A DNA stretch of 59,730 nucleotides from Herbinix sp. (GTDB taxonomy: Bacteria > Bacillota > Clostridia > Lachnospirales > Lachnospiraceae), in the NCBI GenBank assembly GCA_028691795.1, contig JAQUYQ010000003.1:1-59730 (forward strand). The letters are read 5' to 3'. The notes beneath the pieces are model-generated. The model saw only the letters and a program-made list of their open reading frames with translations. It did no database searches and had not been told where the DNA came from. Made by a program: the position numbers and the translations under genes. Of the stretch, positions 46,246 through 59,596 are shown piece by piece (the first letter of the stretch is position 1; every line of letters begins with the position of its first letter).

Positions 46246-47715
46246 TTAACTTCTGATAAGATATTTTTTAATGAGTGGTAAAAACAACATTAAAACTGCA
46301 ATGATTAAGAAAACACAGCTGATTGGGCGAGTTACGAAAATACTCCAACTCCCTTTTGACAAAATCAAAGCCCTTCTCATATTAGACTCAACCATTGGTC
46401 CAAGTACTATTGCAATCACCATAGGTGTTAGAGGGAACTTCAGCTTTAACATTAAATAACCAAATATACCGAATATAATCATTAGGAGCGCATCAAAGGT
46501 ATTGTTATTAACTGCATAGGCGCCAATTACACACAAAACTATGAGAACCGGAATCATCACATTAGAAGGCACTTTTGTTACATTTATAAAAGATTTAATT
46601 AAAAACTTACCTTGTACATACATAAATAAATTTACTAATATAAGCCCAAACATAATTGCATACACCCAACTTCTTTGTTCCACGAAAAGTTGTGGCCCCG
46701 GAATAATCCCCTGCATCGTTAAGGCTCCGATCAGAACTGCGGTATTCGTATCCCCCGGAATGCCTAACGTCAAAAGAGGAATTAATGTGGCACCTGTTAC
46801 AGCATTATTTGCTGCTTCTGATGCAACCACCGCTTCTTCTGAACCCCTCCCGAATTCTTCCGGGGTTTTAGATGTTCTTTTTGCTTCGTTATACGCCAAA
46901 AAAGAAGCAATCGCCGCGCCCGTACCTGGAACAGCACCTATAAAAACACCTAATATACTGGATTTCAATAATACCATCTTATACTTAAGCACATCGATAA
47001 ATCGTGTTTTCGTTTTACCCTCTATTTGTATTGGGGTTTCAGAAGTATTGAAAATGTTACGTCCCTTATTTAGTATTTCGGTAATTGCGAACAAACCAAT
47101 GAGTGCTGGTATAATTTTAATACCCCCAAGAAGCTCCGTAATATTACCCGAAAATCTAGGGATACCATCGATAGGATCAAGCCCAATAGTAGAGACAAAC
47201 AAACCGGCCATTCCCATCATTAAACCTTTCAGTATAGAATCACCACCCACACTGGATATAATTGTCAATCCAAAAACACCCAGTGCAAAATACTCTACGG
47301 GACCAAATTTTAAGGCAAAAGAGGCTATTGCCGGAGCTGCAACTAGTAAAACAAATGTACTAAAAAGTCCTCCAACTATTGATGCAGAGAGTGCTGTATG
47401 TAAAGCGCGTCCTGCTTGGCCTTTTTTAGCCATCGCATACCCATCAAGGGCTGTAGCGGCTGATGCCGGTGTTCCGGGTGTATTGATCAATATCGCTGTA
47501 ATTGAACCACCAAATATACCACCACAATAAACCCCAAGTAGCAGTAGCATACTTGTAATAGAATTCATACCATATGTTAAAGGTAATAATAATGCAATAC
47601 ACATGGTACCTGTTAAACCAGGTAATGCACCAACAATAATCCCACTAAATAAACCTACATTTAAAAACAGAAAGTTCATCGGTGTAAATAGTGTTTTTAA
47701 TACTTCCAATATCAT
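46246..47715 (-). CDS. tctA: Tripartite tricarboxylate transporter, large permease TctA
   Basis: 489 residues, about twelve helices. The TctA signatures GALPGLTGTMCIALLLPLTYG, GGSITAILINTPGTPASAAT and the second-half repeat GAVPGTGAAIASFLAYN are evident, with TLGIPGDTNTAVLIGAL later. It forms the membrane channel for a carboxylate delivered by TctC. It is the last gene of the IclR-dehydratase-aldolase-TctCBA operon, 18 bp after tctB. The start has GGGAGGG upstream. Confidence 0.93.
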   Translation of the reverse strand: MILEVLKTLFTPMNFLFLNVGLFSGIIVGALPGLTGTMCIALLLPLTYGMNSITSMLLLLGVYCGGIFGGSITAILINTPGTPASAATALDGYAMAKKGQAGRALHTALSASIVGGLFSTFVLLVAAPAIASFALKFGPVEYFALGVFGLTIISSVGGDSILKGLMMGMAGLFVSTIGLDPIDGIPRFSGNITELLGGIKIIPALIGLFAITEILNKGRNIFNTSETPIQIEGKTKTRFIDVLKYKMVLLKSSILGVFIGAVPGTGAAIASFLAYNEAKRTSKTPEEFGRGSEEAVVASEAANNAVTGATLIPLLTLGIPGDTNTAVLIGALTMQGIIPGPQLFVEQRSWVYAIMFGLILVNLFMYVQGKFLIKSFINVTKVPSNVMIPVLIVLCVIGAYAVNNNTFDALLMIIFGIFGYLMLKLKFPLTPMVIAIVLGPMVESNMRRALILSKGSWSIFVTRPISCVFLIIAVLMLFLPLIKKYLIRS

Positions 47716-47733
47716 AGAGTCCCTCCCTTTCAG

Positions 47734-48219
47734 TTATGGCAGCATCACAAAAAGCAATTTTGTAAAGCCAAGGTAGATTAATGTAATAGAACCATAAACA
47801 GCCAAATAATGATACCATTTATGAACTTTGAACAAAATAAGCGATAAAGTAGAAGCAATAAAAGTAGATGCAAAAAAACCGAGGTTTTCAAATGTCAGAA
47901 CATATAAAAGCATAATGATACCAAGAACAATAACACGAATTTCATCTTTTAACCCTTGAGAACTACACTCTTTGCCATTTTTAATTACATCATCTTTTTC
48001 ATTTGTCTTTTTTGAAGATAATTTGTTGGAAATAAACGTTATCACTAAATGCGCACCACTTAAAAAAACCATAGTATACCCAATGAAATTTGGAAATGCT
48101 CGAGGACCAACTGCAGAGAGATTTCCTTGTTGAATCGTGAATGGTATTGCAAAAAGAAGAACGATACCAAAAAGAAAAAATATTGCACCAGACAGCATAT
48201 TTTTTTGATAGTCACTCAT
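47734..48219 (-). CDS. tctB: Tripartite tricarboxylate transporter, small permease TctB
   Basis: 161 residues with four hydrophobic helices, as in the TctB family. AIFFLFGIVLLFAIPFTI is the first helix, followed by VGPRAFPNFIGYTMV, the usual conserved segment. The start is ATG at 48219 because AAGGAGG lies 8 nt upstream; the ORF extends to 48249 without a site. It lies between tctC and tctA. Confidence 0.88.
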   Translation of the reverse strand: MSDYQKNMLSGAIFFLFGIVLLFAIPFTIQQGNLSAVGPRAFPNFIGYTMVFLSGAHLVITFISNKLSSKKTNEKDDVIKNGKECSSQGLKDEIRVIVLGIIMLLYVLTFENLGFFASTFIASTLSLILFKVHKWYHYLAVYGSITLIYLGFTKLLFVMLP

Positions 48220-48283
48220 ATCTAGAACCTCCTTACAAAGAGTTGCCATTTCTTTAAAAGAAATGGCAAAATTTTTGTTTCAA

Positions 48284-49285
48284 TTATTTAGCTAATAGCT
48301 CTTTATTAACAGCCGCTTCATCCGCTACTTTCTGAATTACTTCTTCCGGTGTATACGGTGTAATCATTAAATTTGAATTATTAGCAAATTCTATAAATTT
48401 TTCATCTGCAATTATTTTACCCATTGTTTCAGTTAAATAAGCTGAAACTTCATCTGGAACATCTTTTGGTATTATTAAGAACTTCCATACACTCATATCA
48501 ATATCATAACCTAATTCTTTGAAAGTTGGAATATTTTTGAATGCTTCTCTGCTGTCACGCTCTTGACTAAAGACACCGATTGGGATCAAATCACCTGATT
48601 CAACATATTGAAGTATTTCACCAGGGTGTGCGGCACCAATATCAATGTGACTCCCAAGAAGAGCCGTCAACGTTGGTGCACTTCCCTCAAATGGAACTCC
48701 TTCTGCTTCTAAACCTGAATCCTGGAAGAATTTCTCCTGTGCTAACTGGGGTAAGCTTCCTGTTCCGGAAAAACCATAACTGATGGAGCGCCCAAGAGCT
48801 TTCATATCATCAATACTTGTAATACCAGACTGTTTTCCGGCAACCATGATAATAGGTTCTGTTGTTAAGCCTATAACCGGCTTGAAGTCATCCATGCTAT
48901 ATTGAACCTCTCTCATAAACGGTTGTGTTGTAAATACACCTACTGCTTCAAGACATATTGTGTATCCATCCGCTTTTGTATTCTTAAATTCGGTTGTGGC
49001 AATCGTACCGCCGGCTCCGTCCTTGTTTACAACATTTACTGCTACTCCAAAATATTCTTTACCTATTTCAGCAATCGCACGAACCATGGAGTCAGAAGAT
49101 CCCCCAGCTGCCCAAGGACAAATGATTGTAATTGGATTTTTGGGGAAATCTAAAGATTTGACTGTTTCCGTTTCCTTAGCCTGCTCTGTGGTTTGAGTAG
49201 AAGGTTCTTTTTCTTTTGTACTGCTACAACCAGCAAGTGCGATTACCATAGTCAATACTAATAATATTGATACTAATTTTTTCAT
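48284..49285 (-). CDS. tctC: Tripartite tricarboxylate transporter, solute-binding lipoprotein TctC
   Basis: 333 residues. A lipoprotein signal peptide ends at the lipobox LAGC (C20), and a Thr/Glu-rich linker follows. The Bug-type receptor domain contains PITIICPWAAGGSSDSMVRA and KDGAGGTIATTEFKNTKADG, the usual ligand-loop region, then GFSGTGSLPQLAQEKF. It captures an organic acid outside the membrane for TctBA. The ligand is presumably the substrate of the IlvD/Edd-type dehydratase in the same operon (inference). AAAGGAG precedes the ATG. Confidence 0.93.
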   Translation of the reverse strand: MKKLVSILLVLTMVIALAGCSSTKEKEPSTQTTEQAKETETVKSLDFPKNPITIICPWAAGGSSDSMVRAIAEIGKEYFGVAVNVVNKDGAGGTIATTEFKNTKADGYTICLEAVGVFTTQPFMREVQYSMDDFKPVIGLTTEPIIMVAGKQSGITSIDDMKALGRSISYGFSGTGSLPQLAQEKFFQDSGLEAEGVPFEGSAPTLTALLGSHIDIGAAHPGEILQYVESGDLIPIGVFSQERDSREAFKNIPTFKELGYDIDMSVWKFLIIPKDVPDEVSAYLTETMGKIIADEKFIEFANNSNLMITPYTPEEVIQKVADEAAVNKELLAK

Positions 49286-49327
49286 GATTTTATTTCTCCT
49301 TTGAATTTAATTTTTAACTTTTAATAA

Positions 49328-50230
49328 TTACAATAAGTCCAATTTAGTAACAGTATCCTTAATACGATTTAATTCCTTCTCATTCAAATTTCTCATTGGA
49401 AAACGTGCCAGCCCCGTGTCAAATCCTCTTAATGAAAGGATCGCTTTATGACTTACAACAGGCATTACACCCCTACATAATTCTCGGATTTTTAATATTT
49501 TTCGTTGTGCTAAATCTGCTTCCTTAATATTACCTTTTTGAAATTCATCCCATATTTTAACGCATAACTCTGGGAAAATCCCTGAAATTGCTATTAGCCC
49601 CCCCGATGCGCCAGCCTGTAATGAGGCAAGTACTTGTGCATCATTTCCTGTAATGATTTCAAAATCAGGGTCATCAAGAATATCCTGGTACTCAAGAATG
49701 GTCATAAAATTCATACTGCTATCTTTTATGCCTGTCACATTTGGACATGTTTTAATAACTTCATTTAGCAATTCTGCTGTGATCGGATTGCCTGTCATTC
49801 CTGACATATTGTAAAGATAAACGGGTAAATCCCCAGCTTTTTCACAACATATTTTAAAATAATCTATCAGTGCCGACTTATCATACTTGTGATAATAGGG
49901 TGTTGTAAACGAAACTGCATCCGCTCCTTCCCTCTGAGCATGTCCGCAAAGTTCAGAAATATCTTTTAGATTCATGGCTGTTGTATTGAACATCACTTTC
50001 GCGCCATTCACTACACTCTTCTTAGCAGATATTAAAAGCTGCTTTCTTTCCTCTATTGTAAGGTTTACAAATTCTCCTGTTGTTCCAGATACAAAAACTC
50101 CATGAACACCATTACTCGTTACAAATGTATTCACTTTCTCAAATTCTTTATAATTAACACTGCCATCTTTGTTGTAGGGTGTTACAACCGGTGCGGCAAT
50201 GCCACTCATTAATCCCTTATTCAATGTCAT
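49328..50230 (-). CDS. Dihydrodipicolinate synthase-superfamily aldolase
   Basis: A 300-residue TIM-barrel class I aldolase of the DapA/NanA superfamily. The Schiff-base lysine is in TGIKDSS (K169), GTTGEF (49-54) binds the pyruvyl carboxylate, and YNMSGMTGNPI carries the catalytic tyrosine (Y140). The family includes DapA, sialate lyase, 2-keto-3-deoxygluconate aldolase and keto-deoxy-arabonate dehydratase. Here it follows a sugar-acid-type dehydratase, so cleavage or dehydration of a 2-keto-3-deoxy acid is more likely than lysine synthesis. The start could be ATG 50230 (AAGGAG only 1 nt away) or TTG 50224 (7 nt spacing, better). Confidence 0.88.
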   Translation of the reverse strand: MTLNKGLMSGIAAPVVTPYNKDGSVNYKEFEKVNTFVTSNGVHGVFVSGTTGEFVNLTIEERKQLLISAKKSVVNGAKVMFNTTAMNLKDISELCGHAQREGADAVSFTTPYYHKYDKSALIDYFKICCEKAGDLPVYLYNMSGMTGNPITAELLNEVIKTCPNVTGIKDSSMNFMTILEYQDILDDPDFEIITGNDAQVLASLQAGASGGLIAISGIFPELCVKIWDEFQKGNIKEADLAQRKILKIRELCRGVMPVVSHKAILSLRGFDTGLARFPMRNLNEKELNRIKDTVTKLDLL

Positions 50231-50245
50231 TCTCCTTCAAGTATT

Positions 50246-51925
50246 CTATTTCAAAATTGCACCCTCATTAGCAGAGGAAACATCTCTTGAATAGCGATAT
50301 AAATATCCCGTGTTTTTGTTCTCAAACTCTTTTAATAGAGCCGTACGGTTAGCAATTTCTTCGTCCGTTAAACGCACATTCAAACTTCTATTCGGAATAT
50401 CAATATCAATAATATCTCCGTCCTTTACTATGGCAATAGGCCCTTTTCTGGAAGTTTCTGGCGAAACATGTCCAATACATGGTCCCCTTGTTGCACCTGA
50501 AAATCTTCCGTCCGTGACCAGCGCTACTGTTTCTGCATATCCTTTCCCCACTAACAAAGCAGTTGCAGTCAACATTTCTCTCATACCCGGACCGCTTTGA
50601 GGTCCTTCATTTTTTATAATTATGACATCGCCGTGCTCAATCTGCCCAGCAGATATGGCTTCAACAGCTTTTTCTTCGTTTTCAAAACAACGTGCTGGAC
50701 CACTATGTTTTAGCATTTGGGGTGCAACGGCAGTTTGCTTAACAACACTTCCCAAAGGTGCTAAGTTTCCCTTTAGGACGGCTAATGATCCTTGCTTGCT
50801 ATAGGCATTTTCAACTGTATGTATAACTTCTTCATTTCTTTCAACAACAGCATAAACATTTTCTCGATGCGTTTTTCCATTAACTGTTATTAAATCCAAA
50901 TTGATAATACCATCTAGTTCTCTCATAACACCACCAACTCCACCGGCATTATCAAGGTCAAGCATGGTATGACTACCGGAAGGTTTAATCTTTGCTAAAT
51001 AGGGTGTTTCCGCACAAATTCGATCAATATCTTCAAGCGTTAGCTTCAATCCTGCCTCAGTAGCAATCGCTGGATAGTGTAGGGTCATATTTGTAGAACC
51101 CCCTACCGCCATCGACACTCGAAGAGATACTTCAAGCATTTCCTGAGTTACAATGTCCCTTGGTAGAATCTGTTCTTCCACTAAACGTACAATCTCCATA
51201 CCGCTTAACTTTGCAACTCGATTCTTTTTACCACTGACTGCATGCGCACAAGCGCTATGCGGCATTGTTAAACCCATTGCTTCAGCAGCAACTGACATAC
51301 TATTCGCTGTTCCCATCATGGAGCAAGAACCGGGACCAGGAGACATGAGCCCCTCCATATATTCATACTCTTCGTAAGAAATCTCACCGTTTTGTAGTTG
51401 TCCAATCATTTCTTTCAATTCATATGAGGCATAACTTTTGCCATTATATACACCAGGCATCATTGGTCCCCCGGTAACTATGATGGCGGGCAAATTAATA
51501 CGAAGGGCAGCCATAATCATAGCCGGTACAATTTTATCGCAGCCACCAATTAAGACAAGACCATCCAAACTATGTGCATTCGAAAAAACTTCAATGGAAT
51601 CTGCGATGACTTCTCTACTTGGTAATACGCTACACATTCCCGAATGGCCCTGGGCAAAACCATCGCAGATTGAAATTGTGTTAACTTCAAAAGGCACACC
51701 TCCTGCAGCTGTTACGCCTTCCTTAACAAATCCGGCAATACGGTTTAGATGAACATGTCCCGGATGCATTTCGTTAAATGTATTAATGACACCAATAAAT
51801 GGTTTAGCCAACTCTTGATTGACATAACCCATACCTCTGAAATGTGCTCTTGGGCCACCCATATTGATACCATTTACGATTCGAGAACTTCTGTATTTGG
51901 GATTCTTATATTCAAAGTTTTCCAT
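50246..51925 (-). CDS. IlvD/Edd-family dehydratase, probably sugar-acid specific
   Basis: A 559-residue [Fe-S] dehydratase. Landmarks are EMHPGHVHL, GGCDK (C129) and GPGSCSMMGTANSM (C201), with C129 and C201 as cluster ligands. GGSTNM, SGPGMREML and TDGRFSGATRGPCIGHVSPE follow. Genuine IlvD has CPTCGSC at the second cysteine site, while this protein has SPGPGSC. Together with the DapA-type partner and Tct transporter, this argues for an aldonic-acid dehydratase rather than valine synthesis. The cluster is likely oxygen sensitive. AAGGAAGAG precedes ATG. The aldolase gene follows after 15 bp. Confidence 0.88.
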   Translation of the reverse strand: MENFEYKNPKYRSSRIVNGINMGGPRAHFRGMGYVNQELAKPFIGVINTFNEMHPGHVHLNRIAGFVKEGVTAAGGVPFEVNTISICDGFAQGHSGMCSVLPSREVIADSIEVFSNAHSLDGLVLIGGCDKIVPAMIMAALRINLPAIIVTGGPMMPGVYNGKSYASYELKEMIGQLQNGEISYEEYEYMEGLMSPGPGSCSMMGTANSMSVAAEAMGLTMPHSACAHAVSGKKNRVAKLSGMEIVRLVEEQILPRDIVTQEMLEVSLRVSMAVGGSTNMTLHYPAIATEAGLKLTLEDIDRICAETPYLAKIKPSGSHTMLDLDNAGGVGGVMRELDGIINLDLITVNGKTHRENVYAVVERNEEVIHTVENAYSKQGSLAVLKGNLAPLGSVVKQTAVAPQMLKHSGPARCFENEEKAVEAISAGQIEHGDVIIIKNEGPQSGPGMREMLTATALLVGKGYAETVALVTDGRFSGATRGPCIGHVSPETSRKGPIAIVKDGDIIDIDIPNRSLNVRLTDEEIANRTALLKEFENKNTGYLYRYSRDVSSANEGAILK

Positions 51926-51944
51926 TTCTCTTCCTTTCTATTAC

Positions 51945-52733
51945 TTATTTGCGATCTGATATCTTTTTTGTAACTAAAGCTGTACTATCAATGATATCTT
52001 TTGAAAACATTAAAGCTTGCTCTAAAGGAAACCGGTATTCAGGTGCTGATATACTCATTGCACTTACTGCTTTTCCTGTGTGGTCTAAAATAGGTGCTGA
52101 GATACATATGATATCAGGATTATGTTCCTTATTATCGATTGCATAGCCTTTTTCTCGAATCAGCTTTAGCTCTTGGAGTAATTCTTGTTTGTCAACTTTC
52201 GTGTTCTGCGTGAACTTCTTTAATTCTGCACTATTGAGATACTCTTCTATCCATTCTTCACTTTGATATGCCATTAATGCCTTACCGCCGCCAGTACAAT
52301 ATAATGGTAATCTTCTTCCAATACGGGATTTCATACCGATCGGGTTTTTCGTATCCAATTTTCCAATATATATTCCCATATGTTCATCCATAGCAATGAG
52401 ATGGATCGTTTCTCTGCTTATTTCGTTTAGCCGCATCATTTCACCCATAGAAATGTCAAGGAGATAATTACTGGCTTTAATACGCATCCCCATAGCTAAA
52501 GCTTCATATCCCAATTTATATTGTTTACTTTCTTCACATTTTGATGCCAAACCACATGCAATCATTTCCTGCAATACTCTATGTACTGTACTGGCGCTAA
52601 GTCCAGTCATCTCAGATATATCTGTTATAGACACACTATCCTCAGATTCAGTTAAATAGTTGAGAATTAATAGTGCCTTCATTGAACTTAAACCTTTCAT
52701 TTTGTCATTGAGCTCTATGACATTTTGGTTCAA
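51945..52733 (-). CDS. IclR-family transcriptional regulator
   Basis: About 262 residues. The N-terminal winged helix has SITDISEMTGLSASTVHRVL, and the C-terminal effector domain is of the GAF-like IclR type (LIAMDEHMGIYIGKLDTKNP, YCTGGGKALMAY). IclR regulators sense small acids and control nearby catabolic operons; it is first in the dehydratase-aldolase-Tct unit, 19 bp from the dehydratase gene. The start chosen is TTG at 52733 with GAGGTG 5 nt upstream. ATG 52751 has no site and lies inside the predicted operator. Confidence 0.9.
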   Translation of the reverse strand: MNQNVIELNDKMKGLSSMKALLILNYLTESEDSVSITDISEMTGLSASTVHRVLQEMIACGLASKCEESKQYKLGYEALAMGMRIKASNYLLDISMGEMMRLNEISRETIHLIAMDEHMGIYIGKLDTKNPIGMKSRIGRRLPLYCTGGGKALMAYQSEEWIEEYLNSAELKKFTQNTKVDKQELLQELKLIREKGYAIDNKEHNPDIICISAPILDHTGKAVSAMSISAPEYRFPLEQALMFSKDIIDSTALVTKKISDRK

Positions 52734-52749
52734 ATTTACACCTCGTTTC

Positions 52750-52917
52750 ATATATGGAATTTTAATTTCATTTATAGAATTTATGCATTTATAATATCAT
52801 AGTGCTATCTCACATTTCAATACACAAACAAAACAATATTATTCTTTGTTTTTTGTGTATTTTCACTAAATTTTAGTGTTTTTTTTATGCATATTCTATA
52901 TATGGAATTCATAGAAT
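52750..52917 (-). promoter_or_regulatory. Two candidate IclR operators
   Basis: Site 1 (52751-52781) has TATATGGAATT and, 14 bp on, TATAGAATTT. Site 2 (52893-52917) has ATTCTATATATGGAATTC followed by ATAGAAT, a near-palindrome around GGAATTC. Both share TATATGGAATT and ATAGAATTT. They bracket the likely promoter of the IclR-led operon. Confidence 0.45.
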
Positions 52918-54474: not shown

Positions 54475-54666
54475 CGCTTTGTCCGTAAGTTTTAATGCAA
54501 AACTTCTTTTGTCTGTATTTTACATATTTATCCTTTTGATCAAATTTGAAGATGATATGTTTTAATTTATTCCATCATTATTAATCGTTCACTTCTGGAT
54601 TCCTACATCATAAAATATATAGTCAATCAACTATAACCTGTTAGCGTAGATAGAAGGTGTAACAAT

Positions 54667-55893
54667 ATTAAAGCGATTGTATTTATTCACACACAAAAAT
54701 CAGGATCCAGCAGAGAGGCCATTAAAGCTGCAGAGCGTTTAGGCTATTACACCATATTACTTACAAAAAACTCGAAATTTATCTTAAAAAGAAAAGAACT
54801 TCCAGATGTACATTACTTAAAAATATATGATCTAAATAGCATGGAAGAATTGGAGAAAGAAATTCAGTCGCAATATAACAGAGGTATTAATATTTGTGCA
54901 ATTGTAAGTTTTTCAGATCCATATTGCTATACTGCCAGCAAGCTGGCTGAAATGTTTGGAATAAATCAATTCTCAACTGAAGCAATATTTAAAATGCAAA
55001 ATAAAATATATTCACGACAGGTTCTCGCTCAGACTACCTATTCACCTCATTTTGTTATTTTAGATAAGGATTCCGATTTGGACTATGTATATAAAGATAT
55101 GCAATGTTATTTACCATTTGTAATTAAATCTCCTGAATCTGCGGGTTCTAAAGATGTAATTAAAATAAATGATTACAAGGAGTTTAAAAGGGGAGTCAAA
55201 CAATTAATCGAGAAATATCCTGAAATCCCTATCATGGCTGAGGAATTTTTAGATGGTCCCCAATATTTAGTAGAAACTATAGTGTATAAAAAAGAAATAA
55301 GCATAATAGCTATATTTCACCAAGAGGTTACCTTTCAAAAACGTTTCATAATAACTGGATATAACTTGCTTCTCAATAGTTCAAAAGAATTTACGGATCA
55401 CTTGGAACACTCAGTCAGATCTATTATAAATGCCTTTGGCATGGAAACGGGTTCTTGTCATTTGGAAATGCGTTATGTACACGATAAATGGAAATTAATC
55501 GAAATAAATCCCCGTATTTCTGGCTCAGGTATGAACAAAATGATTGAGGCAGCATTCGGTATTAATCTTGTTGAGGAAACACTAAAAATGGCGTTAGGCC
55601 AGGAACCAAACCTGACAACCAAGTATAAAAAACATTTATTTTGCCAACAAGTTACGGTGTCTCAGACCGGGTATTTAGTAAAGGTAACCGGAAAGCACAA
55701 AGCACTTCTATGTCCTGGAATTGTTGAAGTTTATATAAAGCCACGGAAAGGCGCTCTGCTCAGACCCCCATTGTCGATGGGGGATCGCTATGCTTATATA
55801 ATTGCAACTGGTTCCAGCGAGGCAGAGGCGAAAGAAAATGCGAAATATGCTGCTTCCCAAATCAAATTTCATCTAACTGATACTATGCCTTAG
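54667..55893 (+). CDS. ATP-grasp carboxylate-amine ligase, reading frame beginning at ATT
   Basis: The frame encodes 408 residues: a pre-ATP-grasp Rossmann part (KAIVFIHTQKSGSSREAIKA, then AERLGYYTILLTKN) and the ATP-grasp domain. The domain has PFVIKSPESAGSKDVIKI, EEFLDGPQYLVE and the metal site EINPRISGSGM. The family joins an amino group to an acyl phosphate, as in amino-acid ligases. The first ATG (54841) would remove 58 conserved residues. The frame instead opens at ATT (54667), exactly where homologues have ATG, with AGAAGG 9 nt upstream. So ATT is either a rare start codon or a mutated start. The gene precedes the ATP-grasp-Mur fusion by 47 bp. Confidence 0.78.
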   Translation: MKAIVFIHTQKSGSSREAIKAAERLGYYTILLTKNSKFILKRKELPDVHYLKIYDLNSMEELEKEIQSQYNRGINICAIVSFSDPYCYTASKLAEMFGINQFSTEAIFKMQNKIYSRQVLAQTTYSPHFVILDKDSDLDYVYKDMQCYLPFVIKSPESAGSKDVIKINDYKEFKRGVKQLIEKYPEIPIMAEEFLDGPQYLVETIVYKKEISIIAIFHQEVTFQKRFIITGYNLLLNSSKEFTDHLEHSVRSIINAFGMETGSCHLEMRYVHDKWKLIEINPRISGSGMNKMIEAAFGINLVEETLKMALGQEPNLTTKYKKHLFCQQVTVSQTGYLVKVTGKHKALLCPGIVEVYIKPRKGALLRPPLSMGDRYAYIIATGSSEAEAKENAKYAASQIKFHLTDTMP

Positions 55894-55940
55894 CGCTACT
55901 GTTATCTATCATATGAAACAAAGAAAGAGGTGATTTTTCT

Positions 55941-58085
55941 ATGGTTACAGTGGGAATGTTAGATATAAAACATCCCGAGAAAAATCTTAAGGCCTATCCT
56001 TTTGCTTGTGTTGCAAAAGCGGAAGGGATTAATTTTTTTTATTTTATACCTTCTAGTGTTAATTTAGAGTCAAAAACAATACAAGGCTACTTTTATGAAA
56101 ATGGTTGTTGGGTGGTAAAATCAACCACATTTCCTGATGTAATTTATAATTCAAACAGTCAGGCAAAAGCGGAAGAAGATCAAATTATAATTGAAGCATT
56201 AAGATTTCTGATTCCTTTTACCAGCTATCCTGTTGGGAACAAAATAAAAGTATTTGAAATGTTAGGTAAATCAGACACATTCCTTCCTTATCTTCCCGAA
56301 ACAAAAGAAATAGAAAATGTAAACTCCATTATAGATTATATAAATCAAAGAAGGAATATCATATTAAAACCTCGACATGGGCGAAAAGGAAGCGGTATTA
56401 TTTTCATTACATGCAAGGAAGATATGTATGAACTTACCCAGGAAAATAAAACAAGTCAAATATCAAAAAGCGAATTAGGTACTATTATAGAAGAACTCAT
56501 CCCAAAATCATATATTGCTCAACAATATATAAGAAGTATGAATAAAGCCGGGAATGTATATGATTTCAGGCTACATGTACAAAAAGACGGAACGGGTGAA
56601 TGGAAGATCTGCACGATTTACCCGCGTATTGCTCCACATGATAGTATTAAATCTAATATAAGTAGTGGTGGGGCAACCTTGTATTTAGCACCATTTTTAG
56701 AACAAGAGTTTAACGAAGATTATTATAATATGAAGCGATATCTTGAGGTTTTCTCAATCTCTATTGCAAAGGAAATGGATCATATTTATGGAGTAGCATT
56801 TGATGAGCTTGGCATCGATATAGGACTTGATGAAAATAACAAGATCTGGTTATACGAGATTAATTGGCATCCGGGCGTCCCCCCTACATTTTATCTCGAG
56901 TTAAGTGTTGTAAAGACCTCTTTGGAGTATTGCTGTTATCTTGCCAATAAATTTTTGTATCAAGATAATCCGCTTCGTGCTTTTAGACCAGTAATTGCTA
57001 TCACAGGTAGTGCAGGAAAAACCACTACAAAAAGTATGATTGCTTCGGTCTTAAGAGAAAGACTGAACGTTTTTGAATCGAAAGATAATTGCAACACCTC
57101 TGAAAACACAAGGAATCATGTCAACGAAATAACCCCTTTTCATCAGGCTGCTGTTTTGGAATATGCAATGGGGCATGCAGGTGTAATTGCAAGGCATTGC
57201 AATTATATCAAACCACATTTAAGCATTGTAACCAATATCGGTCCCTCCCATATTTCAAATTTTAATAACGACATAAAAGAGATTGCAAAAGCGAAATCAG
57301 AGATTATAAAGGGTATGGATCAAGATGGTATTCTCATTATGAATGGTGATGACCCTAATTCAAAATTCTTAGAAATCGAGCAATTCAAAGGAAAAATTAT
57401 CAAGGTTGGTATAAGTAAGGATTGTCAATTCCAAGCTACCAATATCCAATATGAGATGAATGGAATTTCATTTGATATAGAAATAAAAGGAGAGAAATTA
57501 AACGCTTTTCTACCTGCCTTAGGCAACCACAATCTTTATAACGCCCTATTTGCCATCGCAGCTGGAGTACAGGTCGGTTTAACACCTGCTGAAATATTAA
57601 ATGGATTAAAAAAATATAGGAATCCTAAGGGAAGATTAGAGCTATATCATTTTGATGATGAGATAACGGTGATTGACGATACTTGTCACGCAACCTATGA
57701 GGCTATGAAATCTGCTATTGAAGTTTTGTATCAACAAGCAAAACAGAACAGAAAAAAAATAGCCGTTTTAGGTACTATGCCGGAGTTGGGTACAAAAGTC
57801 ACAGAATACCATAGAGAAATCGGTAAATTATTATACGAAAAGGAAGTTAATATTTTAATTACCTTTGGAACGAATACAGTACATTTCCGAAAAGGAGCAA
57901 TGGAAGCAGGATTTCCACCAGAAAACATTTTTAACTTTTATAATTATGAAAAACTGAATCAGTTTCTTAAAGAAATTGTATGTTCTAACACAGTTTTTCT
58001 GTTTAAGGGTGCTAGAAGAATAAATCTTAGTGAAGTTGCAGAACAATTTATCAATAATCTTAAAAACCAAAGTGGGAGCACTTAA
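55941..58085 (+). CDS. YheC/D-type ATP-grasp fused to a MurF-like ligase
   Basis: 714 residues. Residues 1-340 are a YheC/YheD-like ATP-grasp: VFEMLGK...LPYLPET (about 104-121), KPRHGRKGSG (143-152), and YEINWHPG (305-312) for metal binding. Residues 348-705 are a Mur ligase: P-loop GSAGKTTT (356-363), EYAMGHAG for the second metal, AKAKSEI with the lysine expected to be carbamylated, and the C-terminal glutamate-ligase domain. Cyanophycin synthetase has the same order, ATP-grasp then Mur ligase. The enzyme is probably cytosolic and joins amino acids or a peptidoglycan-like precursor. AAAGAGGTG precedes ATG. Confidence 0.85.
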   Translation: MVTVGMLDIKHPEKNLKAYPFACVAKAEGINFFYFIPSSVNLESKTIQGYFYENGCWVVKSTTFPDVIYNSNSQAKAEEDQIIIEALRFLIPFTSYPVGNKIKVFEMLGKSDTFLPYLPETKEIENVNSIIDYINQRRNIILKPRHGRKGSGIIFITCKEDMYELTQENKTSQISKSELGTIIEELIPKSYIAQQYIRSMNKAGNVYDFRLHVQKDGTGEWKICTIYPRIAPHDSIKSNISSGGATLYLAPFLEQEFNEDYYNMKRYLEVFSISIAKEMDHIYGVAFDELGIDIGLDENNKIWLYEINWHPGVPPTFYLELSVVKTSLEYCCYLANKFLYQDNPLRAFRPVIAITGSAGKTTTKSMIASVLRERLNVFESKDNCNTSENTRNHVNEITPFHQAAVLEYAMGHAGVIARHCNYIKPHLSIVTNIGPSHISNFNNDIKEIAKAKSEIIKGMDQDGILIMNGDDPNSKFLEIEQFKGKIIKVGISKDCQFQATNIQYEMNGISFDIEIKGEKLNAFLPALGNHNLYNALFAIAAGVQVGLTPAEILNGLKKYRNPKGRLELYHFDDEITVIDDTCHATYEAMKSAIEVLYQQAKQNRKKIAVLGTMPELGTKVTEYHREIGKLLYEKEVNILITFGTNTVHFRKGAMEAGFPPENIFNFYNYEKLNQFLKEIVCSNTVFLFKGARRINLSEVAEQFINNLKNQSGST

Positions 58086-58123
58086 TATTTGAAAAAGTGA
58101 GTAATGCAGAAATAGGATTATAT

Positions 58124-58204
58124 GGGGTGTATGTGAGGAACCTTAAGAAGGACAATTTTACCAGTTTCCTTCCCCTTTAAGGCTCTCTCACTTCACCCCT
58201 TTTT
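58124..58204. terminator. Bidirectional terminator between the convergent ligase genes
   Basis: An extended stem: GGGGTG, GTGAG and CCTTAAG on one arm with CTTTAAGG, CTCAC and CACCCC on the other, ending in TTTTT. It separates the plus-strand ATP-grasp-Mur gene from the minus-strand MurF-like gene. Confidence 0.8.
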
Positions 58205-58213
58205 ACTATTAGA

Positions 58214-59596
58214 TTACTGTTGTTTGAGTTTCACCGCCATTTGAGCCATGGATTTATTGAACATGGGACCTTTGATCAATAAAATGCAATCTTTGTGTAG
58301 AATTTTTTTGAGTAGTTCATAGGCTTCATCACAATCCTTCAAGGAATATACTGTTGCTTCTAATCCAATTGTTTTAAAATGCTCAACCATCTGCCCAGTG
58401 ATATCACCAACCGTTACAAGAATGTCAATCCCTTCACTGACTATAATTTCTTCAGCTAATTTATGAATTTTCCAGCTCATTTCACCAAGCGTTTCAATAT
58501 CTGTTAAGAAAAGTACTCTTGTTTTTCCCTGTGCCATCTGGTTTAATACCTTGAGCCCTGCCCTTAAAGAGGTTGTATTAAGACTCCATGTATCATCAAT
58601 GATAGTCGAACCGGAAATTCCTTGCACTATCTCTATATGCCTTTTTAAATTTACGAAAGATTTAAGCCGCTCCCCTGCCTCTTTGATGCCGATTCCTAAC
58701 TCATGGACTGCAGCTATGGCAGCAAGGGCATTATAAACTTGGTGTTCTCCATACCCTGGAACAAATACCGGATACTTCATTTTATGAAATTCTAAGGTGA
58801 ATTTCATGCCATTGTTTTCATAACAGATATTGGAAGCATAGAAATCTGTATCTTTTTTAATACTGAAATAAACCACTCTGCCTTTGTAGTCTGCCAAACT
58901 TATGGTCTTAATCTTTTCATCATCGGCATTTAAAATTAAAATCCCTTCATTATTCAAACCATTTAGCATATCTGCCTTTGCTTGAATATAAGTTTCAATT
59001 GATTTGCAATGATCCAGATGCTCTTCCCCGATATTCGTTATAATCCCTATCATCGGTTTATAATAGCGGCCTGCAATTTTTAAATCGTTTGGAGCCCCTA
59101 CCGCTGTTTCAAAGACTGCCGCATCGGTACTGTCATCGATGCCTAGTAAATAACTTAAATGAAGTAGGCGGGAGTTTTCACTGCTACGGGTCGCTTGTAT
59201 CTTTCGCTCTGCACTGAGAATATGTTTGATCATTTCTTTGGTTGTACTTTTTCCACACGTACCAGTAACTGCAACAACAGGTATATCAAATAATGATCTA
59301 TAATACTGAACAAACTTCCAATAAGCCTTAGTCACATCGTCTACTTTTATAACAATTAACTCACTGAACGACCTAAACTCAGCAAATACCTTATTGGTTA
59401 CTACGACTAAAGGAAGATTTTTAGGAATAGCGCTCCATTCGAATCTTTTATTTTTATAAAAGACAAGAGTATGAGGACTTCTAATATCATCCACATGCCA
59501 AGGGAAAATCACGTTTTTAATCTGAAAATCGGCAGATCCCTGTATAATCTCACCATTCAACAGTTTTTTCATTTGTTCTACGGTAAAAGTTTTCAT
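58214..59596 (-). CDS. MurF-like Mur ligase, stand-alone
   Basis: 460 residues, with all three Mur ligase domains. The N-terminal substrate domain is about 1-100, the ATPase domain has P-loop TGTCGKSTT (111-119), FETAVGAP and IGEEHLDHC, with QAKADML for the carbamyl-lysine region. The C-terminal domain has SGSTIIDDTWSLN and LTDIETLGEMS. It is more like UDP-MurNAc-tripeptide D-Ala-D-Ala ligase than other Mur enzymes, but diverged. It lies in the ATP-grasp cluster rather than in the division/cell-wall cluster, so a dedicated substrate is likely. The start is ATG 59596 with GAGGAG 8 nt upstream. Confidence 0.85.
   Translation of the reverse strand: MKTFTVEQMKKLLNGEIIQGSADFQIKNVIFPWHVDDIRSPHTLVFYKNKRFEWSAIPKNLPLVVVTNKVFAEFRSFSELIVIKVDDVTKAYWKFVQYYRSLFDIPVVAVTGTCGKSTTKEMIKHILSAERKIQATRSSENSRLLHLSYLLGIDDSTDAAVFETAVGAPNDLKIAGRYYKPMIGIITNIGEEHLDHCKSIETYIQAKADMLNGLNNEGILILNADDEKIKTISLADYKGRVVYFSIKKDTDFYASNICYENNGMKFTLEFHKMKYPVFVPGYGEHQVYNALAAIAAVHELGIGIKEAGERLKSFVNLKRHIEIVQGISGSTIIDDTWSLNTTSLRAGLKVLNQMAQGKTRVLFLTDIETLGEMSWKIHKLAEEIIVSEGIDILVTVGDITGQMVEHFKTIGLEATVYSLKDCDEAYELLKKILHKDCILLIKGPMFNKSMAQMAVKLKQQ

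Follow-up and report, generated by a model that had tools for sequence, protein, structure and literature searches.

Three ligase genes at the end of a Herbinix contig

The stretch of DNA analyzed here (hereafter the window) is an entire contig, JAQUYQ010000003.1, of the draft genome of Herbinix sp. (GCA_028691795.1; 3.05 Mb, 272 contigs, 81.6% complete), and its last base is 59730. Close to this end lie three ligase genes, which we refer to as genes 1, 2, and 3: an ATP-grasp ligase of the L-amino acid ligase (LAL) type, a fusion of a YheC/D-type ATP-grasp to a Mur ligase, and a free MurF-like ligase. A sequence-only reading had proposed that they form an undescribed amide-ligase system. The features of the region are listed below by position in the window, strand, and description.

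54590..54617, plus strand: sigma-K-like promoter upstream of gene 1 (CAC, 16 nucleotides (nt), CATAAAATA), score 12.0
54652..54659, plus strand: Shine-Dalgarno-like sequence AGAAGGTG, 7 nt ahead of the ATT codon
54667..55893, plus strand: gene 1, ATP-grasp ligase of the L-amino acid ligase (LAL_C2) type, 408 amino acids (aa) counted from ATT
55941..58085, plus strand: gene 2, 714-aa fusion: YheC/D ATP-grasp, then the middle and C domains of a Mur ligase; the Mur N domain is lacking
56211..56942, plus strand: YheC/D ATP-grasp domain of gene 2, residues 91-334, with metal-site E306-x-N308
57000..57563, plus strand: Mur ligase middle domain of gene 2, residues 354-541, with P-loop GSAGKTT
57630..58016, plus strand: Mur ligase C-terminal domain of gene 2, residues 564-692
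58214..59596, minus strand: gene 3, free MurF-like ligase lacking IDSR; open reading frame open to 59692, likely start 59596

These coordinates, the Pfam scores, and the orientation of gene 3, which is convergent with gene 2, bear out the proposed cluster of three ligases. Gene 1 has the domains of an L-amino acid ligase, with 67.4 bits for LAL_C2 (cut-off 29.4) and 50.5 bits for ATP-grasp_4. Its conserved start lacks an ATG and has an ATT at 54667 instead, 7 nt downstream of AGAAGGTG, and the alignment of its orthologues begins at this position. Gene 1 thus seems to begin with a rare start codon; most of the aligned orthologues have a common one there. In gene 2, ATPgrasp_YheCD (PF14398) covers residues 91-334 with 208.5 bits (cut-off 26.8), followed by Mur_ligase_M (127.7 bits, residues 354-541) and Mur_ligase_C (42.5 bits, residues 564-692). 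Gene 3 scores 134.7 bits for Mur_ligase_M and 24.8 bits for Mur_ligase_C, the latter below that model's cut-off of 28.4. The catalytic motifs look intact, as the sequence-only reading had it: the P-loop (T355-T361) and E306-x-N308 of gene 2 and E279-x-N281 of gene 1 all fall in columns at least 97% conserved among aligned relatives. A terminator scan of the region gave one site versus 3.7 in shuffled sequences. The contig ends 134 bases past the likely start of gene 3, so the sequence beyond that gene is unreadable in this assembly.

The ligase genes form a conserved neighborhood

To define a locus set, an alignment of seven gene 1 orthologues was scanned against genome_contigs, which gave 267 related stretches; the best 80 were kept (labeled L in what follows; genomes are labeled G). 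These 80 loci were picked by likeness to gene 1 and its orthologues and include many close kin. Within 5 kb of the LAL gene, a YheC/D gene occurs in 72 of the 80 loci, a Mur-type ligase of any kind in 53, and a YheC/D-Mur fusion in 23; by type, free Murs are found in 47/80 loci and truncated Murs in 11/80. A free Mur accompanies the fusion in every one of these 23 loci. Thus, the three kinds of gene co-occur and are not scattered paralogues. Eight loci have no YheC/D gene. In five of them (L029, L050, L052, L068, and L099) the LAL gene is near a contig or locus end, and in L047, L072, and L091 it is not near an end.

Relatives of gene 1 that are 44-57% identical adjoin YheC/D genes in genomes G085, G525, and G829 and on the Priestia plasmids pBM300 and pBM600. 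In G525, a Mur lacking the N domain starts at the base directly after the YheC/D stop codon; next come another N-domain-less Mur and the orthologue of gene 1. This is most of the window's gene set in unfused form. The existence of fused and adjacent split forms argues that the YheC/D and Mur steps would handle one intermediate.

Full-length relatives of the fusion were sought in several collections. Leaving the window's own genome aside, 98 relatives (G085 twice and G065) and 390 genomes of the class (G476) gave, under strict limits, matches to one half only, so the fusion at first looked rare; of 140 plasmid records with matches, none aligns at a single place with 80% of the fusion. Scanning genome_contigs and viral_contigs with protein patterns from the fusion gave no relative, an outcome that reflects the patterns (the gene 1 alignment scan of genome_contigs gave 267 stretches). 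Several independent fusions are not shown: a single clade of the fused YheC/D halves was not rejected (approximately unbiased test, p-AU 0.81), and the window has a long branch. Recent horizontal acquisition of the cluster is not favored, as the gene 1 tree has three class changes where the minimum possible is two (quick method). The gene set is old, widespread in spore-forming bacteria, and apparently undescribed.

Each of the two Priestia megaterium plasmids, pBM600 (L009 6627-9032) and pBM300 (L017 3525-5952), carries one divergent pair of an LAL-type and a YheC/D gene; the pBM300 pair is near collagen-like and Spo0E-type genes. Further YheC/D-type genes, some of about 700 aa or longer, lie near the system in L087, L092, and L076.

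The Mur domains differ from MurF

The sequence-only reading had raised the question of whether the Mur domains are ordinary ligases of the uridine diphosphate (UDP)-N-acetylmuramic acid-tripeptide, i.e., MurF. They do not look like such enzymes. Gene 2 (263.2 bits) and gene 3 (238.1 bits) both miss the cut-off of 288.6 of the MurF model TIGR01143, and three relatives from L044 and L043 are also below it (247.9-258.0 bits). The IDSR motif in the N-terminal domain of MurF binds the UDP part of the substrate. Its DSR residues are kept in 0/78 free Murs (2/78 have DSK) versus 3/3 presumed true MurFs, and the Mur half of gene 2 has no N domain at all. The reading as ordinary murein ligases is rejected on these sub-cut-off scores, the missing IDSR, and the missing N domain. 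A MurF-like gene that does have IDSR is found elsewhere in the same genome, adjoining a gene that reads like a D-Ala-D-Ala ligase.

A Mur tree of 80 rows, made with a quick method and with long branches flagged, separates the same groups. All 24 fused Murs and 12 of the 13 truncated ones form one group (Shimodaira-Hasegawa-like approximate likelihood ratio test, SH-aLRT 99), the three presumed true MurFs form another (SH-aLRT 99), and a third, with an SH-aLRT of only 80, holds the free Murs and the remaining truncated row. Gene 3 belongs to a subgroup of 15 free Murs plus one truncated row (SH-aLRT 95), many of which adjoin an LAL gene. For size, 39 of the 77 free Murs other than gene 3 were randomly dropped; also omitted were the Priestia loci and L020, whose DNA is identical to that of L036.

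Sporulation genes and sigma-K-like promoters

The sequence-only reading had noted that YheC/D-type ATP-grasps are spore-associated. This hint is backed by the distribution of SpoIVA, by sigma-K-like promoters, and by CotZ-like neighbors (next section). We searched 279 genomes, sampled evenly across the class of G829, for relatives of gene 1 with E ≤1e-100. This class is taken to be Bacilli, since the SpoIVA coordinates of G951 coincide with those in the genome of Brevibacillus dissolubilis (L038). There were 23 genomes with such a relative, and all 23 have SpoIVA, versus 198/279 overall (hypergeometric p 2.5e-4, a value that ignores kinship). Likewise, SpoIVA is present in 22 of 23 genomes searched individually, the window's genome included. 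Metagenome-assembled genomes (MAGs) titled Acholeplasmataceae, Acholeplasmatales, Haloplasmataceae, and Haloplasma (L085, L086, L099, and L048) have LAL, YheC/D, and SpoIVA, and three also have a Mur; the presence of SpoIVA indicates that sporulation genes extend to lineages whose titles place them among the kin of wall-less bacteria.

Upstream regions of 150 bp were scored with four sigma-factor patterns and compared with those of 622 other genes of the same loci. The sigma-K motif is enriched upstream of LAL (79 regions, p 6e-12), Mur (53 regions, p 4e-10), CotZ-like (22 regions, p 5e-5), and YheC/D genes (82 regions, p 0.009), where the loci are related, the p values are uncorrected for kinship, and one genome is present twice (L020 and L036). 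After near copies were thinned, the values were 2e-6 for LAL, 9e-8 for Mur, 2e-5 for CotZ-like, and 1e-3 for YheC/D. Sigma-G and sigma-A showed no enrichment relative to the 622 genes, and sigma-E reached p 0.028 for Mur only. The two strands of the 59.7-kb window contain seven sigma-K-like sites with a score of at least 12, one of which is ahead of gene 1.

CotZ-like neighbors share a C-terminal tail

A CotZ-like family of about 145 aa (29 members) lies within 5 kb of the LAL gene in 28/80 loci, and 22 of the 29 have a Pfam Spore-coat_CotZ match with E ≤0.01 (best 1e-20). One extra CotZ-like gene with the tail described below, in L040, is outside the 29 as it was missed by the gene picker. 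The C-terminus of 27/29 members is E-x-K plus 0-2 residues, mostly IEPKW ((I/V)EPKW-type), and this tail is found in 13 of 15 clusters at 60% identity. Only 21 of the 1640 picked genes of the loci end in KW, and all 21 belong to the CotZ-like family. The strict form of the tail occurs in 25/29 CotZ-like proteins versus 0/1611 other genes, of which 38 have the loose form.

A Pfam CotZ search of 50 genomes from the G829 class (23 LAL-positive and 27 LAL-negative) gave matches in 22. Among the 29 CotZ places listed, the tail is present in 3/3 beside an LAL gene (L139, L140, and L141) and in 0/26 distant ones. Overall, 30/32 CotZ-like proteins of the system have the tail versus 0/26 at distant places (Fisher p 1.7e-14, which ignores kinship). 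In other genes, the loose tail is no commoner near LAL (5/455) than far from it (18/847), which points to no second acceptor. Four loci (L049, L054, L087, and L092) have LAL, YheC/D, and a tailed CotZ-like gene with no Mur nearby; L060 has the genes and not the tail. Given such Mur-less loci, if the tail is the acceptor, the LAL and YheC/D core should act first.

A second small family, F7, of Cys-containing proteins of about 145 aa, is located near YheC/D, Mur, or LAL genes in clostridia and bacilli, at nine loci (L023 8842-9808, L025 9348-9797, L040, L044, L052, L071, L095, L096, and L100). Among the F7 members scanned, none matches Pfam at E ≤0.05 or NCBIfam at E ≤0.1; the family has no E-x-K tail. 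F7 is a possible second structural partner.

Comparison with known ligases

The sequence-only reading had likened gene 2 to cyanophycin synthetase. The order of domains, an ATP-grasp then a Mur ligase in one chain, is indeed that of CphA1, and the predicted structure of gene 2 aligns with CphA1 over both halves. The likeness does not extend to the parts themselves: the Mur half is nearest MurF, by sequence and by fold, and the fold of the ATP-grasp half ties with RimK, LysX/ArgX, and glutathione synthetase, with tubulin tyrosine ligase lower. This half was modeled separately because the Mur half filled the rows of the whole-fusion structure comparison. The root-mean-square deviation (rmsd) from CphA1 over both halves is about 20 Å (predicted template modeling score, pTM, of the model 0.59), indicating that the domain arrangement differs from that of cyanophycin synthetase. 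Gene 2 scores 77.2 bits on TIGR02068, far below the cut-off of 850, and is further set apart from CphA1 by its YheC/D-type ATP-grasp, its MurF-like Mur, and its spore context. Gene 3 is also nearest MurF by sequence, yet both differ from MurF: gene 2 lacks the N domain, gene 3 has an N domain without IDSR, both score below TIGR01143, and both are placed in separate tree groups.

YheC and YheD of Bacillus subtilis, which we take to define PF14398, have the same kind of ATP-grasp as gene 2, and yheD is under sigma-E control; in contrast, the subfamily described here is tied to LAL and Mur partners and to sigma-K-like promoters. Iyer and colleagues (2009) reportedly predicted YheC/D-type ATP-grasps to be modifiers of spore-wall or capsular proteins, a prediction that the Pfam entry is said to give as well. 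Gene 1 shares ATP-grasp and LAL_C2 with the L-amino acid ligases BL00235 (3vot) and 4wd3, and its PDB profile match to 3vot is 3e-21. These ligases are distant from gene 1, whose family is tied to YheC/D and spore genes. RimK, LysX/ArgX with LysW, and tubulin tyrosine ligase differ from the present system, in which no carrier protein turned up here and whose acceptor the CotZ tail would suggest.

Proposed function and alternatives

Taken together, we read the three genes as one local version of an amide-ligase system that is conserved in Bacillota, linked to sporulation, and active late in the mother cell, under sigma-K, on the outer layers of the spore (probability roughly 0.6). The system probably builds or attaches amide-linked pieces on these layers, not on the cell wall, and the ligases perhaps act on protein C-termini. 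The sequence-only reading had offered a peptide, a polyamide, or a modified spore component as products; the present results favor a spore-surface component and do not separate the three by proof.

The scheme that we infer for expression, reactions and their order, substrates, acceptor, and localization is as follows. The genes would be transcribed late in the mother cell under sigma-K. The YheC/D ATP-grasp would turn a carboxylate into an acyl phosphate and join it to an amino compound, and the attached Mur module, without a UDP-sugar-binding domain of its own, would take the product of its ATP-grasp partner and add the next amine. Gene 1 may supply a dipeptide-like building block or one more amide bond, and the free Mur may add another unit. 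In many Bacillales, the acceptor would plausibly be the C-terminal E-x-K-W tail of the CotZ-like crust or exosporium protein, which might be extended or capped by analogy with the action of RimK, LysX/ArgX, and tubulin tyrosine ligase on protein C-termini. In a bolder form, which we regard as possible and rather doubtful, the system would be an old protein-tail ligation machine in which ATP-grasp enzymes and Mur ligases, drawn away from wall synthesis, lengthen or cap the E-P-K-W tail of dedicated CotZ-like crust or exosporium proteins, or a different acceptor in clostridia, by adding a non-ribosomal peptide or polyamide. The spore surface would then carry a covalent, genetically dedicated decoration of a kind not known before.

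Several results weigh against the sporulation-linked, outer-layer function. The tail is absent from two of the 29 CotZ-like proteins (L060 and L082), and Pfam CotZ is detected in just 10/23 LAL-positive genomes, adjoining LAL in just three. In the window's own genome, an 81.6% complete draft, a search made without a positive control detected no CotZ, and there is no I-E-[S/P/T/A]-K-W-stop pattern. Loci with clostridial titles (L023-L026, L028, L030, L036, L039, L042, L078, and L088) have no CotZ-like neighbor, so the tail model fits only part of the family. The LAL-positive MAG L078 gave no SpoIVA match. As for the promoters, the sigma-factor patterns follow general consensus sequences with weights set by us, and the loci are kin; NlpC/P60 genes (29 regions) and F7 (9 regions) show no sigma-K enrichment; and no sigma-K-like site with a score of at least 10 is found upstream of gene 2 or gene 3 (about 130 bp exist upstream of gene 3).

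Other explanations share part of this evidence. The domain order of gene 2 would suit a cyanophycin-like enzyme whose product, a free polyamide or a short non-ribosomal peptide, is kept in or on the spore, gene 1 giving a dipeptide primer or unit; the ATP-grasp would then build the backbone and the Mur would add side chains. This model is unlikely given the 77-bit score against a cut-off of 850, the differing domain arrangement (rmsd about 20 Å, pTM 0.59), and the 27/80 loci without a Mur within 5 kb (some of which stop at contig ends), and it leaves the CotZ tail unexplained. The nearness of the Mur parts to MurF (by sequence, and for gene 2 also by fold), along with an NlpC/P60 peptidase within 5 kb in 23/80 loci, could instead point to modification of peptidoglycan precursors, or of a cortex or germ-cell wall peptide, in sporulation. 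We consider this improbable: IDSR is absent from 78/78 free Murs, an N domain is missing from the Mur part of gene 2, the genome has its MurF-like gene with IDSR beside the D-Ala-D-Ala-ligase-like gene, and the NlpC genes are without sigma-K enrichment.

That the window's organism retains just a degenerate or residual system is quite improbable. The apparent ATT start of gene 1, the long branches of the fused protein (Mur half 0.76, YheC/D half 1.14), and the lack of a detected CotZ in the 81.6% complete draft would fit decay, but the three long open frames, the preserved catalytic columns, and the good Shine-Dalgarno sequence and sigma-K-like promoter at gene 1 argue against it. A secreted, dipeptide-type secondary metabolite produced at sporulation is very improbable; gene 1 does resemble L-amino acid ligases, and a family reading like ABC-transporter ATPases occurs in 22 of the clustered loci, but that family is found at varied positions, and gene 1 and its relatives track taxonomy like old core-like genes.

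Relation to published work and wider context

To our knowledge, covalent maturation of spore outer-layer proteins is largely open. Given a conserved ligase set and a candidate acceptor tail, mass spectrometry of spore proteins can address this question directly. MurF-like ligases would appear outside ordinary wall synthesis, and a cyanophycin-synthetase-like ATP-grasp-Mur order assembled from different parts may yield new amide-bond enzymes.

In the open-access literature, no title or abstract opening among the matches listed describes this cluster, and none of 407 matches holds YheC together with Mur ligase. While the component families are known, the set has apparently not been described in that literature. 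In one study, Priestia megaterium strains without pBM600 had lost the exosporium, a need for pBM500 not being excludable (PMC4674009); the loss agrees with, and does not test, a role for the LAL and YheC/D pair that pBM600 carries. Another study describes B. subtilis YheD as surrounding the spore and interacting with itself, with no known function (PMC7911427).

Elsewhere in the window, the minus strand at 46246-52751 carries, judging from translations, genes for a tripartite tricarboxylate transporter, DapA-like and dihydroxy-acid-dehydratase-like genes, and an IclR-like regulator.

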